A DNA stretch of 37,808 nucleotides, taken from the IMG/VR virus record IMGVR_UViG_3300025818_000059, positions 1 through 37,808 of that record, one strand, 5' to 3'. The notes beneath the pieces were generated by a model. The model was not told where the DNA came from. It saw only the letters and a list, made by a program, of their open reading frames with translations, and did not search any database. The stretch is from a virus. Shown piece by piece: positions 3,218 to 35,010 of the stretch (position 1 is its first letter; each line of letters begins with the position of its first letter). The translations under genes were made by a program, and so were the position numbers.

Positions 3218-3501
3218 TATTTTCTTTCCTTAGCAGACTTCCTGTCGTGGCATCTTTTACATAGCAGCTCTAGGTTGTCTAAATCATCTGCCCCGCCGAA
3301 TCTCCGGTTATCTATGTGGTCTACGTGCCCTTCGTTATAACCCCTTCTAAGAGGCATTAGAGCACCGTCACGCTTACATTGTTGACAAAGTGACTCATCC
3401 CTTAACCAAACCATATCCCGCTTTATCTTCCACTCTTTTGTTTGGTAGTAAGGATCCGTCTTTTGCCTGTGGGTTTGTTTACGTGGTTTGTTTAATTTCA
3501 T
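3214..3501 (-). CDS. HNH endonuclease (small, phage type)
   Basis: 95 residues with a complete HNH site: Cys39xxCys42, the GHVDHIDN block (His59, Asp61, His62), Asn76, and CKRCH (Cys81, Cys84, His85). Small HNH proteins of this kind help terminase or generate nicks in many siphophages. Here it is the last gene of the long minus operon, and its start overlaps the methyltransferase gene by 23 bases, so a link with DNA modification is also possible. Its stop codon overlaps that of the plus-strand HNH gene by three bases. The two HNH proteins are not close relatives of each other. Confidence 0.85.
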   Translation of the reverse strand: MKLNKPRKQTHRQKTDPYYQTKEWKIKRDMVWLRDESLCQQCKRDGALMPLRRGYNEGHVDHIDNRRFGGADDLDNLELLCKRCHDRKSAKERKY

Positions 3502-4492
3502 CCATTTGCTGTATTACCTTAAATATCTCATAAGCCACTTGTGGAACTATTGCATTTCCTGCGGCTTTGATGGATTCGTTTCGCCACTTAGGAAAGGTGA
3601 TACCGTCCAGTCGGGAGGAAACCCCATCATTTCTAGAACAAATCGGGGATTGAGTTGGGAAGTTTGACCACCTGAGTCCCGGATTCGTTTTGGTAGGCTG
3701 TCCTGATTCCTTTTGCCTGTGTTTTTCTCTGGTGTCCAGTCGGCTAACGGTGTCGGCAGTAATCCCTTCGCTGCTAGTTCGTTCAACTCTACTCCATGTC
3801 TGCCCCCCTGTTCCGCATTGCTTGCCTTTTTCCCGTTCGGTGTTCCGTTGAATGTCTTGGGGGTTGGGAGTAGGCCGTTTCTCGCTATGTCGTTTAGACT
3901 CGCCCCCCATTTTACCCCATTCTTGTCTATATTTGTAAACCTTCCGTTTTTCATTACTAACACTTTCCCCTTGTTCGCTCCCTCCGCCATTCCATCGAAA
4001 GCCTTCACGGTAGGCAATAAACCAAACTCTGTCTCTTCTGTGGGGAGCGTTGACGGCAGCAGCTGGAAGTATAATCGGTTGTACTTCGTACCCTTCATTT
4101 TCCAAGTCATTCTGCACCTCATCGAATACCATTCCCCCGTTCCAACTAACAAGCCCAGAAACATTTTCGCCCACGACCCAACGTGGCTGAATCTCTCTAA
4201 TTGCTCTAAGCATTTCCGGCCAGAGGTGGCGGTCATCTTCCTTTCCAAGTCGTTTCCCTGCGTGGCTGTATGGCTGACAAGGAAATCCTCCTGTGAGGAT
4301 GTCGATTTTTCCTCTGTGAATAGAGAAATCTGTCTTGGTGATATCTTCGTATGATTCTGCATTAGGCCAATAATGTTTTAATATTTTCTGTCCAAATTCA
4401 TTCCATTCGCAATGAAAGATGTTCTCCCATCCCATCCACTCAGCAGCTAAGTCAAAGCCTCCTATGCCTGAAAATAGTGAGCCGTGATTCAT
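3479..4492 (-). CDS. DNA cytosine-5 methyltransferase
   Basis: 337 residues. Motif I GSLFSGIGGFDLA (4-16) binds S-adenosylmethionine. Motif IV GGFPCQPYS carries the catalytic Cys72. Motif VI is ENV (109-111), motif VIII RRDRVWF (152-158) and motif X GNAIVPQ (312-318). Between VIII and X, about residues 161-295, the target-recognition region is short of hydrophobic residues and looks disordered. That is where a second long ORF (3547-4362) runs in the +1 frame. It probably methylates phage DNA against host restriction. The start lies one base after the stop of the 30-codon membrane peptide (TAAGATG). The region is visibly GC-richer than its surroundings. Confidence 0.92.
   Translation of the reverse strand: MNHGSLFSGIGGFDLAAEWMGWENIFHCEWNEFGQKILKHYWPNAESYEDITKTDFSIHRGKIDILTGGFPCQPYSHAGKRLGKEDDRHLWPEMLRAIREIQPRWVVGENVSGLVSWNGGMVFDEVQNDLENEGYEVQPIILPAAAVNAPHRRDRVWFIAYREGFRWNGGGSEQGESVSNEKRKVYKYRQEWGKMGGESKRHSEKRPTPNPQDIQRNTEREKGKQCGTGGQTWSRVERTSSEGITADTVSRLDTREKHRQKESGQPTKTNPGLRWSNFPTQSPICSRNDGVSSRLDGITFPKWRNESIKAAGNAIVPQVAYEIFKVIQQMDEIKQTT
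3547..4362 (-). CDS. overprinted ORF: LPTP-repeat / NPRFVLEMMGFP family protein
   Basis: 271 residues in the +1 frame inside the methyltransferase gene, covering its residues about 44-315. It has protein-like features that a random frame should lack: three spaced GLLPT(P/V) repeats, each followed by a hydrophilic linker and the block SLNDIARNG or ELNELAAKG, and a C-terminal NPRFVLEMMGFPPDWT. From memory, proteins with LLPTP repeats and an NPxFVxxMMGFP or NPxWVEWLMGxP ending accompany phage cytosine methyltransferases, in some phages as separate genes. The function is unknown. In the shared region this frame looks better folded than the methyltransferase frame. The start ATG at 4362 has no clear ribosome site, so expression could be by coupling or low-level initiation. 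Real coding status needs comparative tests. Confidence 0.65.
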   Translation of the reverse strand: MQNHTKISPRQISLFTEEKSTSSQEDFLVSHTATQGNDLERKMTATSGRKCLEQLERFSHVGSWAKMFLGLLVGTGEWYSMRCRMTWKMKGTKYNRLYFQLLPSTLPTEETEFGLLPTVKAFDGMAEGANKGKVLVMKNGRFTNIDKNGVKWGASLNDIARNGLLPTPKTFNGTPNGKKASNAEQGGRHGVELNELAAKGLLPTPLADWTPEKNTGKRNQDSLPKRIRDSGGQTSQLNPRFVLEMMGFPPDWTVSPFLSGETNPSKPQEMQ

Positions 4493-7977: not shown

Positions 7978-9608
7978 ATTATGTTAAAAGATTTAGTTGC
8001 TGTATTGTATTTAATATTGACTAGGCTAGGACATTGCCCCAACCAATATTGCTTTAACTTTTGGCAATATAGTTTATTAGTCTCATATTTCCTAGAAACA
8101 TTGCCATACTCATCTTGATTTTCTGTTCCAACGAAATCCCGCCAAAAAGAAAGGATGCAATCTGCTATGTTGTAGAAGTCTGAGGACCCGCTAATATCAT
8201 AAGGTTTCACTACATCGTAATTACCATCATCGTCCTTACTCATCTTCCTTGGGTGTGCTACCATGAAAACCAAAGAATTATACTTCTTAGCGAAGTTGGC
8301 AAACCCCCGAAGAACCGGAGCTATACTACTATGCTCATGTCCGTCCTTTTCTAAATAGTTAAACGGATCCACCACAAATAGATTAGTTCCAAACCGCTTA
8401 TTCATAGACTGCATGATTTTAAGTATCTCCTTATAGTGCATACTATCTACCTCCACCGTGTCAACGAATTGGTAATCCTCCTTAATCATATTCATCACAT
8501 CAAGAACGTCATCGCTGTAATCACCCGTTCCTATAATGTCTTTTTGAAGCCAATGGTTAGATATCTGCATAATTTGTATAGCATTATCCATTTCGGCAGA
8601 GATATATCCAGGTCTTACACCTTCGTTGTATTTCTTCCATTGAGCGATTAGGTAATCTAACAAAGGAGACTTACCCGAATTAGGCGTACCACTCAATACA
8701 ATAAACTGACCCCATAGTGGTGTAAGTAAATGGTCTAACTCAGGATTATTTGATGTAAGTCCTTTTGGGAATCCATTGGTAATGTAGTCATCTAATTCAG
8801 ACTCGTAATCTTCGGCACTATGTACAGACTTGATAGGCTTCTTGTGAACCCTTTTAAGGCACTCTAACGCCTTTTCTTTACCGTGCCTAACCAACACCTC
8901 ATTAATGTCTTTGCAATCGTCAGGATAGCTTATGTAGCCCGTTTCGGGACCTAGCCTAACTAATAGATCATTCCGCCCCTTTGTTCCGGCATCATCCGAA
9001 TCCATACAAAGAACAAACTCTTTGCTTTCAAGGCTCTCTATCTGACCGTCTAAGAACTTATGAGAATTAGCCCCGTTAGGTAAACTGACCACCGATATGT
9101 TAGGATCTACTTCGTAAACCGTTAAAGCATCTATTTCACCCTCAGTTATGTAAACTACATCATCTGCTAAAGCATCGTAATTATAAAAGTTCATCTCTGC
9201 CCCACCCTCTAGGGTCCACCGCTTACCAGGAAACCGCTTCTTAATATTAAAGAGTTCATCCCCCTCTCGAAAATAATTGAAGTGAATAGCTTTATCATTC
9301 CCTGTTACACCAAAGCGTTTTAATGTATTAAGGGAGATTTTTCTAGTGCCGAAGTAGTCTATTACCTTTTGTGATAGATCGTAGCTGTCGGGGGCTTCTA
9401 AGGGCTTGTAAGCGGTTTTTATCTCTTTATGCAAAGGCTCGTTCTTTGGGGCGTTGTGGTATTGACAGTTATTAACTCTATCACATCTCCCATATTCCTC
9501 AGATAAGTATTCCTCAGTAAGCAGGTCACGATATTTAACAAATCGCTTTTGTCCACATTGAGGACAATGGAACTTCTTAGAGGACTTGTCAAGTTCATAT
9601 CTAAACAT
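7974..9608 (-). CDS. bifunctional DNA primase-helicase
   Basis: 544 residues in the order of T7 gp4/Twinkle-type enzymes. There is an N-terminal zinc finger (CPQC at 15-18, further Cys at 42 and 48). A Toprim domain has ITEGEIDALT (Glu157) and CMDSDDAG (Asp203, Asp205, Asp206). A RecA-like helicase has Walker A GTPNSGKS (307-314), Walker B LFVVDPFNYLE (410-420) and a sensor-like VAHPRK (His452). It would unwind the fork and prime lagging-strand synthesis. It is the only replication enzyme in the window with a clear motor, and no DNA polymerase was found. The start ATG shares one base with the previous stop (TAATG). Confidence 0.92.
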   Translation of the reverse strand: MFRYELDKSSKKFHCPQCGQKRFVKYRDLLTEEYLSEEYGRCDRVNNCQYHNAPKNEPLHKEIKTAYKPLEAPDSYDLSQKVIDYFGTRKISLNTLKRFGVTGNDKAIHFNYFREGDELFNIKKRFPGKRWTLEGGAEMNFYNYDALADDVVYITEGEIDALTVYEVDPNISVVSLPNGANSHKFLDGQIESLESKEFVLCMDSDDAGTKGRNDLLVRLGPETGYISYPDDCKDINEVLVRHGKEKALECLKRVHKKPIKSVHSAEDYESELDDYITNGFPKGLTSNNPELDHLLTPLWGQFIVLSGTPNSGKSPLLDYLIAQWKKYNEGVRPGYISAEMDNAIQIMQISNHWLQKDIIGTGDYSDDVLDVMNMIKEDYQFVDTVEVDSMHYKEILKIMQSMNKRFGTNLFVVDPFNYLEKDGHEHSSIAPVLRGFANFAKKYNSLVFMVAHPRKMSKDDDGNYDVVKPYDISGSSDFYNIADCILSFWRDFVGTENQDEYGNVSRKYETNKLYCQKLKQYWLGQCPSLVNIKYNTATKSFNII

Positions 9609-30064: not shown

Positions 30065-30908
30065 TATTCAAAAAATTATTGATTTTAAAAACTAAAATTT
30101 GCTTTAATAACGCTTCCCTCGCATCAACGTCAGAAGCAGACACATCGGCCTCTTGGACCATTGTGGTTTCTGTAAGTGTTATGGTTTCAGTCCCATTTGT
30201 AGTAACCATGTTGGCGGGAATTAAATTGTAATCAATTCCTTCAACTGTTACCATAACCGGATTATATTCCATATCATCCTTTTCTTTAGGCGAACCGCCC
30301 GTATCTTTAGGTCCGTTTTTGAACCCGTACTCTTTAAGTTTCTTATTAAAAGATGCCGCTATTTTAGGTGCATATATGGTTTTTGATATAAACCCGTACT
30401 CTTCGGCTGTTTCAGCATCCATCCACGTTTCCTCCGACATTAGCATTTCTATGGTGGCAGAGTCTAGGTTAGAGTTATTTACATAAATGGAAACAAGTTG
30501 ATCTTTAATCTGATCTAGGGTGTCAGCCTCTTTTCTCATGTCATCAGCATCCCCCACCATCATAGTCCAAGGATTATGAATCATTAAGAAGGTTCCTTCC
30601 CTCATTACTCTAGTTCCTCCCGCCATAGCTATAATAGATGCAATAGAAGCAGCTAATCCACTAACCTCAACAGTAAGTTTATCTCTAACATCTTTAAGCA
30701 TATTATAAATAGCAATACCGTCAAAAACGGATCCACCAGGACTGTTTATTAGTAACTTAATAGATGAAAGATTTTTAACCTTATCAAGATCAGCCTTAAA
30801 GTTAGAAGCATCAACGCCCCACATTCCAATCTCATCAAAAATGGTTATTTCCGCTTCGCTCGTAGCATTTTTTTTAGGAATAACCTTTACATCATACCAC
30901 TTCTTCAT
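30048..30908 (-). CDS. ClpP-like head maturation protease
   Basis: 286 residues. LLINSPGGSVFDGIAIYNM, GLAASIASIIAMAGG (nucleophile Ser88) and FLMIHNPW (His111) are the S14 peptidase active-site blocks, followed by EETWMDAETAEEYGF. It trims the capsid and scaffold during prohead maturation. Its end overlaps the capsid gene by 17 bases and its start the portal gene by four. Confidence 0.92.
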   Translation of the reverse strand: MKKWYDVKVIPKKNATSEAEITIFDEIGMWGVDASNFKADLDKVKNLSSIKLLINSPGGSVFDGIAIYNMLKDVRDKLTVEVSGLAASIASIIAMAGGTRVMREGTFLMIHNPWTMMVGDADDMRKEADTLDQIKDQLVSIYVNNSNLDSATIEMLMSEETWMDAETAEEYGFISKTIYAPKIAASFNKKLKEYGFKNGPKDTGGSPKEKDDMEYNPVMVTVEGIDYNLIPANMVTTNGTETITLTETTMVQEADVSASDVDAREALLKQILVFKINNFLNNEQRK

Positions 30909-32212
30909 TCCTTCTTATTGTAAAGTTTATCTGCCAACATTTGAGCTATCATTTGTTGACCTTCTTCTGAATTATAAATGTTATCTATCAGGTCTAAAGG
31001 AACCATATTAGATTGAATAAACAACCTATCACCGCCCTCTATCGGGTTATCTCCATTATACTCTCGAACCTGATTAGGTGTTTTGTAAGCGTTCTGTATT
31101 CCTGTTCTATTCTGCTCTGCAACAGCCATTGCATCAGCTCTAATATAACGCTCCATATCCATGTTTATGTATGCACCATCAAGATCCCTTGCTAACTTTG
31201 TGTTAAGCTCACACTCAAACTTTTCCACCATAGGAGCCAAAGAGTCTTTAAGAAAGGCAATACCCATTTCTTCAATATTTCTGAATGTAGAACCTTGTTG
31301 TAAGTCTTGTATCTTCCAAGGTGGAACACCAAACCATCTAGCAATAGTGTTTACTGAAAAGAACCCCGTTTCAAGAAATTGTGAATCTTCCGGTGGAATT
31401 GAATAAGGGGTGTATTCGGTTTCTACGTTCGTTATCAAATCTCCCCCGTTTTTCTTAGCTATTGCGTGTTTGTCTACTAAGTCTTGGTATTGTTTATCAT
31501 TTAGCCGTGACTTAACGGAAAGAACTCCATCAAACTTACCACCTTGACCAAAGTATTTAGAACCATATCTTCTTCTAGCTAACTCTAAACCTATATCTTC
31601 CCTCGCCCTTGAAATAGGTGGAATACCAACAACCCCATCACCAAGATTTGCCACGTGAATTATCCTATCGGGAGATAAACGCCTAGCATCTCCATCTTCG
31701 GAAGTGATTTCGTAAATTATTTTTTGATCAACACCATCCCCTTTTTTAATCACTTTTACCTTAGATGGATGGTGAATAAAAAAACCAGTAATAGGCTTTA
31801 GTCTTGAAACCCTTATCGGTTCAATGTAACAATTTCCCCACAATGTATAATGCATTGCCGCCCTTTCCATAAGGGTGTTTCCGTTCATGTACGGAAGTGG
31901 CTGTTTGAATAATTTTAAAAGAGAATGATCAATTTTCTCTTTTCTATTTCTTGTCTCTCTGTAAATATTTATAGGAAAATAAGAAAAAGGACCTGAATAA
32001 GCCCTTACACACGCCCAAACAGCAGAAAATGTTAAAGCTTTTTGTTCGTTTACATCTTCTCCGGAAGCCGTTGAATCACCACCACCTAATATCTGAGCTA
32101 CCGTAAAGCCGTTTATTTGTCGGTCTGGATTTTCTAAGGTAAAATTACTAAACCCTAAAGAGTGACCAATAGCATCATAAGTCCTTTTAAAGAAGGATTC
32201 TTTCTTATCCAA
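30905..32212 (-). CDS. portal protein, HK97 gp3 family
   Basis: 435 residues. FSAVWACVRAYSGPFSYFPI, TLMERAAMHYTLWGNCYIEP and FFSVNTIARWFGVPPWKI are the portal family blocks. The dodecamer forms the DNA channel and docks terminase. The best start is a TTG at 32212. The frame has a stop a few codons upstream and no ATG before the conserved part, so the insertion just upstream may have removed the original start. An 11-codon ORF runs over the same bases in another frame. Confidence 0.9.
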   Translation of the reverse strand: MDKKESFFKRTYDAIGHSLGFSNFTLENPDRQINGFTVAQILGGGDSTASGEDVNEQKALTFSAVWACVRAYSGPFSYFPINIYRETRNRKEKIDHSLLKLFKQPLPYMNGNTLMERAAMHYTLWGNCYIEPIRVSRLKPITGFFIHHPSKVKVIKKGDGVDQKIIYEITSEDGDARRLSPDRIIHVANLGDGVVGIPPISRAREDIGLELARRRYGSKYFGQGGKFDGVLSVKSRLNDKQYQDLVDKHAIAKKNGGDLITNVETEYTPYSIPPEDSQFLETGFFSVNTIARWFGVPPWKIQDLQQGSTFRNIEEMGIAFLKDSLAPMVEKFECELNTKLARDLDGAYINMDMERYIRADAMAVAEQNRTGIQNAYKTPNQVREYNGDNPIEGGDRLFIQSNMVPLDLIDNIYNSEEGQQMIAQMLADKLYNKKE

Positions 32213-32351: not shown

Positions 32352-32393
32352 CGGTCATACTGCTCGTCCCTACGGGCACTCCGGTACAGACCG
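32352..32393. repeat. GC-rich hairpin beside the cassette boundary
   Basis: CGGTC (32352-32356) with GACCG (32389-32393), and inside it TGCTCG (32361-32366) with CGGGCA (32373-32378) around the loop TCCCTA. The outer stem ends at the GTTAAC box that marks the cassette end, so this may be a second degenerate recombination site or a terminator remnant of a former neighbouring cassette. Confidence 0.5.
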
Positions 32394-32444
32394 TTAACAT
32401 TTTATAAAAGGCATTAAAACGCTTTTTATGTCGGCGTTATGCGC
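32393..32444 (-). repeat. attC-like site, downstream end of cassette
   Basis: GTTAAC (32393-32398), then stem ATAAAAGG (32404-32411), loop CATTAAAACG (32412-32421), stem CTTTTTAT (32422-32429), then GTTATGCGC (32436-32444). Read with the gene it begins GCATAAC two bases after the stop codon and ends GTT. The site is an imperfect direct repeat of 33264-33318. The loop is identical and the stem sequence differs with pairing kept. Confidence 0.6.
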
Positions 32445-33271
32445 AATTAGATATTGAACTTTACATTTATAACCCCATTCTTTTGGAATGCAACTATCTC
32501 TTGATTAAAACCGTCAAGTTTTCTTTTGTACATTTTTGCACCATTTCTACAATCTGTCTTGTAAAATAATCCGCAATCTTCTTTTATTTCGTTAAAAATT
32601 TCAAGTTCGTTTTCTAAGTCATATACTTTGTCTTGCAATAGCTTTATCTCGGATTTATGCTTTCTTATTAATTTATAGTATTCTTGCTTAAATTTTTCCC
32701 TTAATTCCTTCATTTCCTTGTATTCTGGTATATGTATTATGTGCTTGTATGAATTCTGACTTATAAGATGCTTTTCTATTTCCGTTATTGAATTGACTGT
32801 TTTAATTATGTCAATTTCCAAGCAAAAAAGATTACTTTTTTTTATTTTCTTTTCCTTACGTTCTCCTATGTAAGAACTTTTTGCAAATTCTACTAAATAC
32901 CTTTCATCGCCTATATAACCTATTGCATCTGGTATGTAGTCATCAATTTTTTTCTCTAACTCAACTTTGTCAAAAATTAAGACATCAGACCCATTGATAA
33001 CATACGGCAATTTTACCTTTCTTACTTTCTCAAAGATTGCTTTATATGCTTTATGTACGGCAGACTCTAAAGAACAATTAGAATCATCAATATGATAAAA
33101 ATGGTCTGATATAATATCACCTCCCCTTAGTTTTACATCAGAACCACAATTACACCTATAAATTATTCCCTTTTTAGCACTTTCTATGTCGACAACATTG
33201 TTATTTTCATCAAATGCAAAAGGTATTTTAAATGTTTTAGCCATATTATTTGTTTTAAAAAAAGCGCATAA
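32398..33271 (-). mobile_element. integron-like single-gene cassette (874 bp)
   Basis: One gene lies between two related hairpin sites. If recombination joins at G|TT, as at integron attC sites, the excised circle would carry GCGCATAAC ... GTTATGCGC, perfectly complementary 9-mers. The two present-day sites have only partly matching outer boxes, as expected when each is a hybrid of cassette and host site. The gene starts 20 bases inside one end and stops two bases before the other site, the compact layout of cassettes. It separates terminase from portal, which are normally adjacent. No integron integrase gene is in the window. Boundaries assume this model. Confidence 0.55.
32447..33244 (-). 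CDS. CoiA-like PD-(D/E)XK nuclease (cassette cargo)
   Basis: 265 residues from MAKTFKIPFAFDE. An N-terminal zinc-like patch has CNC (31-33), His48/His51 and Cys57. SLESAVHKAYKAIFEK follows, then the PD of IPDAIGY (105-106) and LVEFAKSSY with Glu119 and Lys122, then LFCLEIDI. This order matches competence CoiA-like nuclease-fold proteins seen in bacterial accessory regions. The C-terminal third is a coiled coil. Catalysis is plausible but unproven. The frame extends to 33310 only because the hairpin site happens to be open; the ATG at 33244 is the sensible start. It is more AT-rich than its neighbours. A role in exclusion of competing phages or in DNA uptake or recombination is speculation. 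Confidence 0.65.
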   Translation of the reverse strand: MAKTFKIPFAFDENNNVVDIESAKKGIIYRCNCGSDVKLRGGDIISDHFYHIDDSNCSLESAVHKAYKAIFEKVRKVKLPYVINGSDVLIFDKVELEKKIDDYIPDAIGYIGDERYLVEFAKSSYIGERKEKKIKKSNLFCLEIDIIKTVNSITEIEKHLISQNSYKHIIHIPEYKEMKELREKFKQEYYKLIRKHKSEIKLLQDKVYDLENELEIFNEIKEDCGLFYKTDCRNGAKMYKRKLDGFNQEIVAFQKNGVINVKFNI

Positions 33272-33318
33272 CAATTTATAAACCACATTAAAACGATGGT
33301 TTATACTCAACGTTACCC
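33264..33318 (-). repeat. attC-like site, upstream end of cassette
   Basis: GCGCATAAC (33264-33272), perfect nine-base stem TATAAACCA (33277-33285) / TGGTTTATA (33297-33305) around loop CATTAAAACGA, then CTCAA and CGTTACCC (33311-33318). The terminase stop codon TAA lies inside the terminal box (GGGTAAC on the minus strand). Confidence 0.6.
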
Positions 33319-35010
33319 AATATTAGTAAAATAATTGTAATCTAACAACTTTAACTCTAATAATTTTTGAACACAAGTAGCTAACGCAGTAGATCCGTCT
33401 ATTCTTTTATTAGGATTATCCTTCACCATCATCTTATCGCCATGATTTCCCACCTTTATTTCCGTGTTAGTTAGATTCCACCTCATTACCGGATTAAATA
33501 AAAAGTTCATGCTATTTTTATACAACAAGTGTTCTATGTAGTTAATAGCCGGACTGAGATAAAACCCTTGCCCAACCTTTTCCATAAATCCTTCTTGAAC
33601 ATAATTACTATCCTTCATAAAAGTAGCCAAAGAAGATAGATACTTAGGGTCACAGGCCATTGTTTGAACATCGTATTTATCCATTTCTTCATTCATATAC
33701 CTAGCCATTTCATCATATTCCACCGTATCCCCCTCGAAAACCGTGATATAACCCTTATCTACCCATCTTTGATAGTCAACCTCGTCAAATCGCTGCTTTT
33801 TGATCTTTTCTTGAGGTATCCAGAAGTGAGACTTAACAACAACCCGACCTTCTATATCAGGAAAAACTAACACAAAAGCGTTTAAATCACCCCCCGCAGA
33901 AAGGTCAACGCCGGCTCCACAAGTAGCCCCAATAAGTGATTCTTCATCAATTTCCTCGTTATTTGCCTTAATTACATCAGTAGGAACCCAAATACTAGCC
34001 TGATCAAGCCATAATCCTGCATTTTTGATGTAAATATTAACGGCCTCGCTACCTTTGACAGATTCAGCCTCTAATTTACGCTCTTTTAGGTACGACCACA
34101 AGGTTTCTGAGTAATCCACCATAGGATTAGATTTAGCCCACATCTTCAGGTCGTTTTTTTCTTCCTCAGCATCCAACTCGAACATTATAGCTAGATTTCT
34201 GTCTGCATCTATATTCCCCTCTAATGTACTTACCGCCTTTTGCCTTAAAACAGAGTAACAAGGACCGTCTTTATTGTGACCTGGTGAGGTTATGACTAAT
34301 GTTAGTGGGTTTTTCCTCTGACCCTGACCCGACTTAATTGTTTCAAGTAAGACAGAATCCTTCGCTTCGTGGAACTCGTCAATAACTCCGATAGATGGAT
34401 TCCCTCCATCACCTGGATTCTTTGGCATTGCCTCAATTTTTCCTCTACGGTTAATGTCTTCATAAGTAATTTTTATTGTTTCTTCCTTGTGAGTAAAGAC
34501 CTTTAGTGGTCCTGAGTTGTTCTTATTGTCTATTTTTAGCCACAAATCGCGTAATTGTGGTGACTTTTTGATGATTTCCCCCGTTTTTCCGGTACAAATC
34601 AACGCTTGATCCCTAGAATTTGCCCCATGTAGAATTTCAGGGTAGGTATCATGGTATAATAGCAGCTCTATAAGGCTGACTATCGAAACGTAGAAGGTTT
34701 TAAAGTTTTTACGGGCTACCTGAATGTATGCTTCCCTAAATCGCCTCTCACCACTCTCTTTGTACTTCCATCCGTAGATTTGCTCGAACCAAAAGGCAAA
34801 AGGCGGTGGTATAGAGTTTTTAATTCGTAATTCAGGGATATGTACTATCTCTTCAGCAAAGAAGTTTACCCGATTTATCTCATCTACGTCCCAAATAAGA
34901 TCATCCCTCTCTAAATCGGATAAAAACCTCTCCGCAGCAAGCCTCACCCATTTCCCAACTAAAACCCTGCCGTTTATTACATCATGTGCATATTGTTCGG
35001 CCTTAGTCAC
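33313..35010 (-). CDS. terL: terminase large subunit
   Basis: 565 residues. A Walker A-like VARKNFKTF (deviant, as in HK97 terminases), Walker B IGVIDEFHEAK, a coupling TLVITSPG, then the nuclease domain GAGVDLSAGGDLNAF and a C-terminal KRIDGSTALATC aspartate. It pumps and cuts DNA at the portal. Its normal partner, portal, is now about 1.1 kb away because of the cassette. Its last codon and stop fall in the attC-like site, so the C-terminal residues may have changed on insertion. Confidence 0.92.
   Translation of the reverse strand: MTKAEQYAHDVINGRVLVGKWVRLAAERFLSDLERDDLIWDVDEINRVNFFAEEIVHIPELRIKNSIPPPFAFWFEQIYGWKYKESGERRFREAYIQVARKNFKTFYVSIVSLIELLLYHDTYPEILHGANSRDQALICTGKTGEIIKKSPQLRDLWLKIDNKNNSGPLKVFTHKEETIKITYEDINRRGKIEAMPKNPGDGGNPSIGVIDEFHEAKDSVLLETIKSGQGQRKNPLTLVITSPGHNKDGPCYSVLRQKAVSTLEGNIDADRNLAIMFELDAEEEKNDLKMWAKSNPMVDYSETLWSYLKERKLEAESVKGSEAVNIYIKNAGLWLDQASIWVPTDVIKANNEEIDEESLIGATCGAGVDLSAGGDLNAFVLVFPDIEGRVVVKSHFWIPQEKIKKQRFDEVDYQRWVDKGYITVFEGDTVEYDEMARYMNEEMDKYDVQTMACDPKYLSSLATFMKDSNYVQEGFMEKVGQGFYLSPAINYIEHLLYKNSMNFLFNPVMRWNLTNTEIKVGNHGDKMMVKDNPNKRIDGSTALATCVQKLLELKLLDYNYFTNIG

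Follow-up and report, generated by a model that had tools for sequence, protein, structure and literature searches.

Why should a phage carry, between its terminase and portal genes, a single gene enclosed by two hairpins that resemble the attC sites of integrons, and what could have put it there? We addressed this question in a viral DNA of 37,808 nucleotides (IMG/VR record IMGVR_UViG_3300025818_000059), the whole of which we refer to as the window. A first-pass annotation of the letters alone had read the locus as an integron-type cassette bounded by attC-like hairpins.

Two attC-like hairpins flank one gene in the window

Site 1 (32390..32444, minus strand) lies between the cassette gene and the portal gene, and site 2 (33264..33320, minus strand) lies at the terL end of the cassette, where the terL stop codon falls inside it. 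In our covariance model, site 1 scores 56.2 bits on the minus strand and 19.0 on the plus strand, and site 2 scores 62.0 bits; both belong to the training set of that model. Read on the minus strand, site 2 consists of a stem, TATAAACCA/TGGTTTATA, with one unpaired T and an apical CGTTTTAATG; its putative exchange point is G33312|T33313. The apical element (on the plus strand, CATTAAAACG) is common to both sites, with one AT-rich gene between them, and a direct-repeat search recovers the pair as a 27-nt repeat of 85% identity at a spacing of 874 nt. The R box of site 1 on the plus strand, GTTATGCGC (32436-32444, putative exchange point G32436|T32437), is the exact complement of GCGCATAAC (33264-33272). 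The site sequences, coordinates, common loop and complementary boxes given in the first-pass annotation were thus all borne out.

The CATTAAAACG decamer by itself is not rare in so AT-rich a window (seven matches at no more than one mismatch, versus four expected), and the third of its exact copies (at 9316) lacks a hairpin. Taken together, however, R boxes, hairpin and apical loop are not a matter of chance, because the two sites score as given above, independent bacterial loci reach up to 62 bits in the same model, and random Flavobacteriales DNA is nearly free of matches to a wider model described below. Neither site matches an Rfam family at gathering thresholds. Site 1 is imperfect, with an A/C mismatch in its stem, and alone shows no attC-type folding (z 0.05). 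The circle junction predicted by the geometry of the first-pass annotation does fold into an R stem, spacers and an inner stem (z -2.35).

The putative mobile cassette would span 32437..33312, 876 bp running from just after G32436 to G33312, with its gene reversed relative to the site. Its ends are complementary R boxes, TTATGCGC...GCGCATAA, which pair exactly, and its GC content is 28.7% versus 37.8% for the phage. The flanks are the portal gene (30905..32212, minus strand; PF04860) and terL, encoding the terminase large subunit (33313..35010, minus strand; PF03354 and PF20441). The cassette gene (32447..33244, minus strand) encodes 265 amino acids, of which residues 19-59 resemble CoiA_N (E 1.1e-5, slightly short of the Pfam cut-off); by eye, the sequence after them includes a stretch reminiscent of a PD-(D/E)xK nuclease. 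The protein has no match in phage records, PADLOC or solved structures and a weak one in PHROG (E 0.0029), and a single-sequence AlphaFold model (pLDDT 36.9) was set aside. By eye, there is no tyrosine recombinase among the open reading frames of the window. A search through terL for a relative with an empty site returned none: two contigs with the same terL both hold the same cassette, and other terL relatives are at 25-32% identity. Elsewhere in the window, two long open frames overlap on the minus strand (3479-4492 and 3547-4362), and the former resembles, by eye, a DNA cytosine methyltransferase.

Other phage genes are bounded by sites of this type

Scanning IMG/VR with a pattern for the site turned up further examples in unrelated contigs (L004, L005 and L007), and the cassette itself in the two contigs with the same terL (L006 and L009). 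Genes other than this one are bounded by matching sites in further phages and in chromosomes; the lack of a similar site around any other gene was among the findings by which the first-pass annotation would have had its reading refuted. Matches to TTGTTATGCGCTTTT and TTAATTGCGCATAAC within unrelated coding sequence were set aside.

Across the phage sites the stems vary and yet pair, whereas the apical CGTTTTAATG is constant. We aligned 12 sites, mostly from unrelated phages and including two from Polaribacter phage P12002L. Nine of the 13 hairpin pairs are altered on both sides, the covariation score is 0.367 versus 0.130 for shuffled alignments, and 92.6% of cells pair, as compared with 31-45% in slid controls. 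The stem covariation suspected from the two window sites is therefore confirmed. Both cores, AAC and GTT, are unchanged throughout the alignment, for which the sites were selected with these cores. The family can be described as an R'' box ending in AAC, a spacer of 5-7, a covarying stem usually with one unpaired base, the apical CGTTTTAATG, the returning stem, a spacer of 3-5, and an R' box starting with GTT.

Such phage cassettes have a precedent in P12002L, for which one study reports attC sites (PMC9892861), one of which is reported there to recombine with IntI1. In our model, two P12002L sites next to DNA methyltransferase genes score 60.1 and 57.5 bits; they probably include the published, tested attC sites. 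P12002L also contains half sites such as AACGTATTTGTGTAAGATTAGT, with the next gene directly after (L138:31256-31325 and 40897-41005), which are possibly decayed attC sites. A phage-encoded integrase was considered and dropped, as no PF00589 recombinase was found in 19 cassette-bearing phage records, many of them fragments and that of P12002L complete.

Related sites form arrays in Flavobacteriales chromosomes

A genome-wide scan with the exact short-site pattern gave no matches because bacterial sites carry other R boxes, and a plain scan for R boxes plus stem was uninformative. The covariance-model search of Bacteroidota that the first-pass annotation had proposed did find chromosomal sites: a model first trained on phage sites (R1), whose E-values are rough, has matches in 20 of 395 Bacteroidota genomes, and these form arrays with genes between the sites. 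In one genome (G112), a 375-aa tyrosine recombinase is encoded directly upstream of the array, on the coding strand of the array genes. Its relatives are common in Flavobacteriales; several are at contig ends, and several contigs stop right downstream of the recombinase gene, as expected from a repetitive array.

With a wider model (R2), likewise with rough E-values, we counted 115 matches in 347 kb beside genes for tyrosine recombinases of ~375 aa, a sample of 23 loci of which most were picked by recombinase and a few by sites. In 398 kb of 20-kb pieces drawn at random from these genomes there were two matches (one palindrome, counted on both strands), and the surroundings of 20 canonical IntI loci (within about 10 kb) gave none in 382 kb. 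The majority of array sites, at about 135 nt, are long and score weakly when taken singly (20-39 bits). Some recombinase loci (G024 and G017) have no sites by R2, and some site-bearing genomes (G423) have no recombinase of the ~375-aa length. In one Plebeiobacterium contig (L251:7644-9752), a 702-aa open frame with a long N-terminal part and a C-terminal tyrosine recombinase lies beside site matches.

In an integron, the R' box at the start of a cassette and the R'' box at its end derive from one circle. Neighboring sites must therefore have complementary boxes across the gene between them. When R' was compared with the next R'' in the arrays, 48 of 77 pairs were perfect at all six variable positions (mean 5.05 of 6), versus 14 of 756 for other pairs (mean 2.41) and 3 of 102 when both boxes were of the same site (mean 2.52). 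In one locus (L098:2500-6400), a series of small genes encodes the recurring peptides KALHIADV/KALHIGGV and VVGRSEQL where box-like sequences occur, as though the frames cross recombination sites.

The R' box of the first cassette is 36-48 bp past the recombinase stop codon in 8 of 16 loci (two with one mismatch); three further loci have it at distances of 62, 90 and 112 bp. Throughout, the nearest model match was taken as the first attC, so that missed sites would overstate some distances. This box is mostly preceded by a palindrome of varying sequence that resembles attI. The position is the one in which an attI would be expected.

The recombinase lacks the IntI-specific domain

Canonical IntI (TIGR02249, E 1e-60) was found in none of 296 Flavobacteriales genomes. 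As a positive control, the search of 395 Bacteroidota genomes returned IntI above the curated NCBIfam cut-off in 105. Few complete integrons have been reported in Bacteroidetes (PMC9024848), and 105 of 395 is far above what that count suggests.

The ~375-aa Flavobacterial recombinase has SAM-like and catalytic domains and an N-terminal extension of ~105 aa. It has no IntI-specific domain, which is the usual criterion of an integron integrase in surveys (PMC9668308), and scores under the TIGR02249 cut-off. The catalytic lysine and the HxxRH motif are 65-66 aa apart in every N-extended recombinase whose landmarks were detected (which excludes five), versus 107 in IntI. In a tree, 13 IntI proteins form one clade (100/100) and eight XerC/D proteins another (100/99), and the Flavobacterial recombinases are outside both (92/98, at an open fork). 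Against NF040815 the score is 218 bits, with a cut-off of 220, and the best relatives among solved structures are XerC-like 4a8e, IntI4 2a3v and XerA 5hxy. The position of its gene suggests that this enzyme acts on the array sites.

Exchange point and gene orientation

In one genome (G075), four contigs are alike in the site body and the downstream sequence and unlike upstream of the AAC. The contig ends concerned (L202, L203, L204 and L205; contigs C23, C18, C7 and C22) are identical in their site and in a further 25 bp, which suggests that a repeated cassette interrupted the assembly. At about nine loci, phage or chromosomal, body, GTTATGCGC and leader agree and the sequence diverges upstream of the AAC, and L126 and P12002L have a common body and right flank. 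L004 and L007, which share the right flank with differing bodies, fit the proposed exchange point less well.

Because the G075 contig ends, the attI-like junctions and the phage comparisons place it there, we infer that exchange occurs at G|TT on the strand opposite the model, which in the window is the plus strand (32436|32437 and 33312|33313). The cassette would then carry site 2, with its gene running against the site. The first-pass annotation had put the exchange on the minus strand, also at G|TT, and had made site 1 part of the cassette; the same three comparisons favor the plus strand and site 2 instead. The left-hand gene lies on the model strand at all 23 of the 23 phage-type sites, two of them (in L097 and L098) in bacterial assemblies, and on the opposite strand at 24 of 26 bacterial sites. 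With respect to the site, cassette genes thus have opposite orientations in phages and in bacteria.

Discussion

We consider it likely, at a probability of roughly 0.8, that the window holds an integron-type cassette of a Flavobacterial site family whose arrays are headed by a ~375-aa tyrosine recombinase, and that the phage cassettes are moved by a host enzyme or are remnants. The integron-type reading of the first-pass annotation is supported by the covariation, the complementarity of R boxes, and the families of sites in phages and arrays. The cassette, at about 32437-33312, would have brought one folded attC-like site, site 2, and site 1 would be the resident site that received it by recombination. 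The predicted circle junction would read ...ACTCAACG|TTATGCGC..., and the predicted empty junction ...GTCGGCG|TTACCC.... In Flavobacteriales chromosomes, sites of the family build cassette arrays behind the recombinase, which is related to IntI and XerA and for which G|TT in folded sites is the most likely point of exchange. For phage cassettes, which come without a recombinase of their own, a host enzyme may insert and excise them in trans, or they may be remnants of past exchanges. The mechanism would be a single-strand one, with a putative host supplying the enzyme. The first-pass annotation had proposed a Bacteroidota-specific system, and the sites are so far found in Bacteroidota only; it had also proposed an integrase acting in trans, which is supported, but the likely enzyme is not canonical IntI, since the arrays adjoin a recombinase without the IntI-specific domain.

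Could these be ordinary attC sites, mobilized by a canonical IntI from another bacterium, with the Flavobacterial recombinase a mere neighbor? The attC-like anatomy of the sites and the occurrence of IntI in other Bacteroidota would suit this explanation, and the reported activity of IntI1 on a P12002L attC (PMC9892861) means that canonical IntI might also serve. We nevertheless regard it as improbable, given the lack of IntI in the Flavobacteriales genomes and of model matches around the 20 IntI genes; in those IntI genomes that do have R1 matches, the matches are on other contigs or about 1 Mb off. The attI-like spacing, moreover, ties the arrays to the other recombinase.

Two further explanations do without an integron. 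It is very unlikely that the hairpins are regulatory or terminator elements of phages that merely resemble recombination sites, even though some hairpins with the same loop are found where a gene ends but no complete site is present, and stop codons often lie in or beside a hairpin arm. Such elements would not explain R boxes that match between neighboring sites across a gene rather than inside one site, and the invariant cores (with the selection noted above), the lack of an Rfam family, and arrays linked to a recombinase at attI-like spacing speak against them as well. An insertion by an IS200/IS605-type single-strand transposon or a homing endonuclease, suggested by hairpins around a single-gene cargo with a nuclease-like stretch, is scarcely credible: the cassette gene has a weak match to CoiA_N and none to a transposase or homing-endonuclease family, and includes neither an HUH transposase TnpA nor the accessory TnpB family. 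Each unit has a single hairpin and complementary boxes at its ends, the same site goes with many unrelated cargo genes, and the attI-like junctions and the arrays also argue against such an insertion.

The Flavobacterial system shares with the IntI integron its folded sites with R and inner boxes, its arrays of complementary R boxes, an apparent G|TT exchange, and an attI-like junction beside the integrase gene. It differs in that its integrase lacks the IntI-specific domain, is outside the IntI clade, and is encoded upstream of, and co-directionally with, its array, and in that its short sites have the conserved apical CGTTTTAATG. Among tyrosine recombinases of the simple kind, the nearest comparison is with XerA and the integron-like subgroup (PMC8138268), with which the proximity to the NF040815 cut-off agrees, but from which the N-terminal extension and the position at the head of cassette arrays set the Flavobacterial enzyme apart. 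In that classification, the insertion is incompletely conserved in the integron-like subgroup, yet essential for function (PMC8138268). The window, with two sites and no recombinase-like frame by eye, corresponds to a phage CALIN (at least two attC and no phage integrase), as does P12002L, where the phage likewise has two model-matching sites and no integrase. The P12002L study treated the sites as ordinary attC, and its available portion makes no mention of Flavobacterial arrays or recombinase (PMC9892861). Searches of an open-access library returned no Flavobacterial integron of this kind, so that novelty is provisional.

It seems probable that Flavobacteriales have integrons of their own, run by a recombinase without the IntI-specific domain, and that their phages carry a distinct pool of the cassettes of this system, with site-reversed genes. 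If such an integrase does run integron arrays, the present definition of an integron integrase (PMC9668308) is narrower than it should be, and a means of gene capture has been overlooked in a large environmental order. The same system would offer a testable route by which Flavobacterial phages may gain accessory genes, such as those for methyltransferases and nuclease-like proteins.
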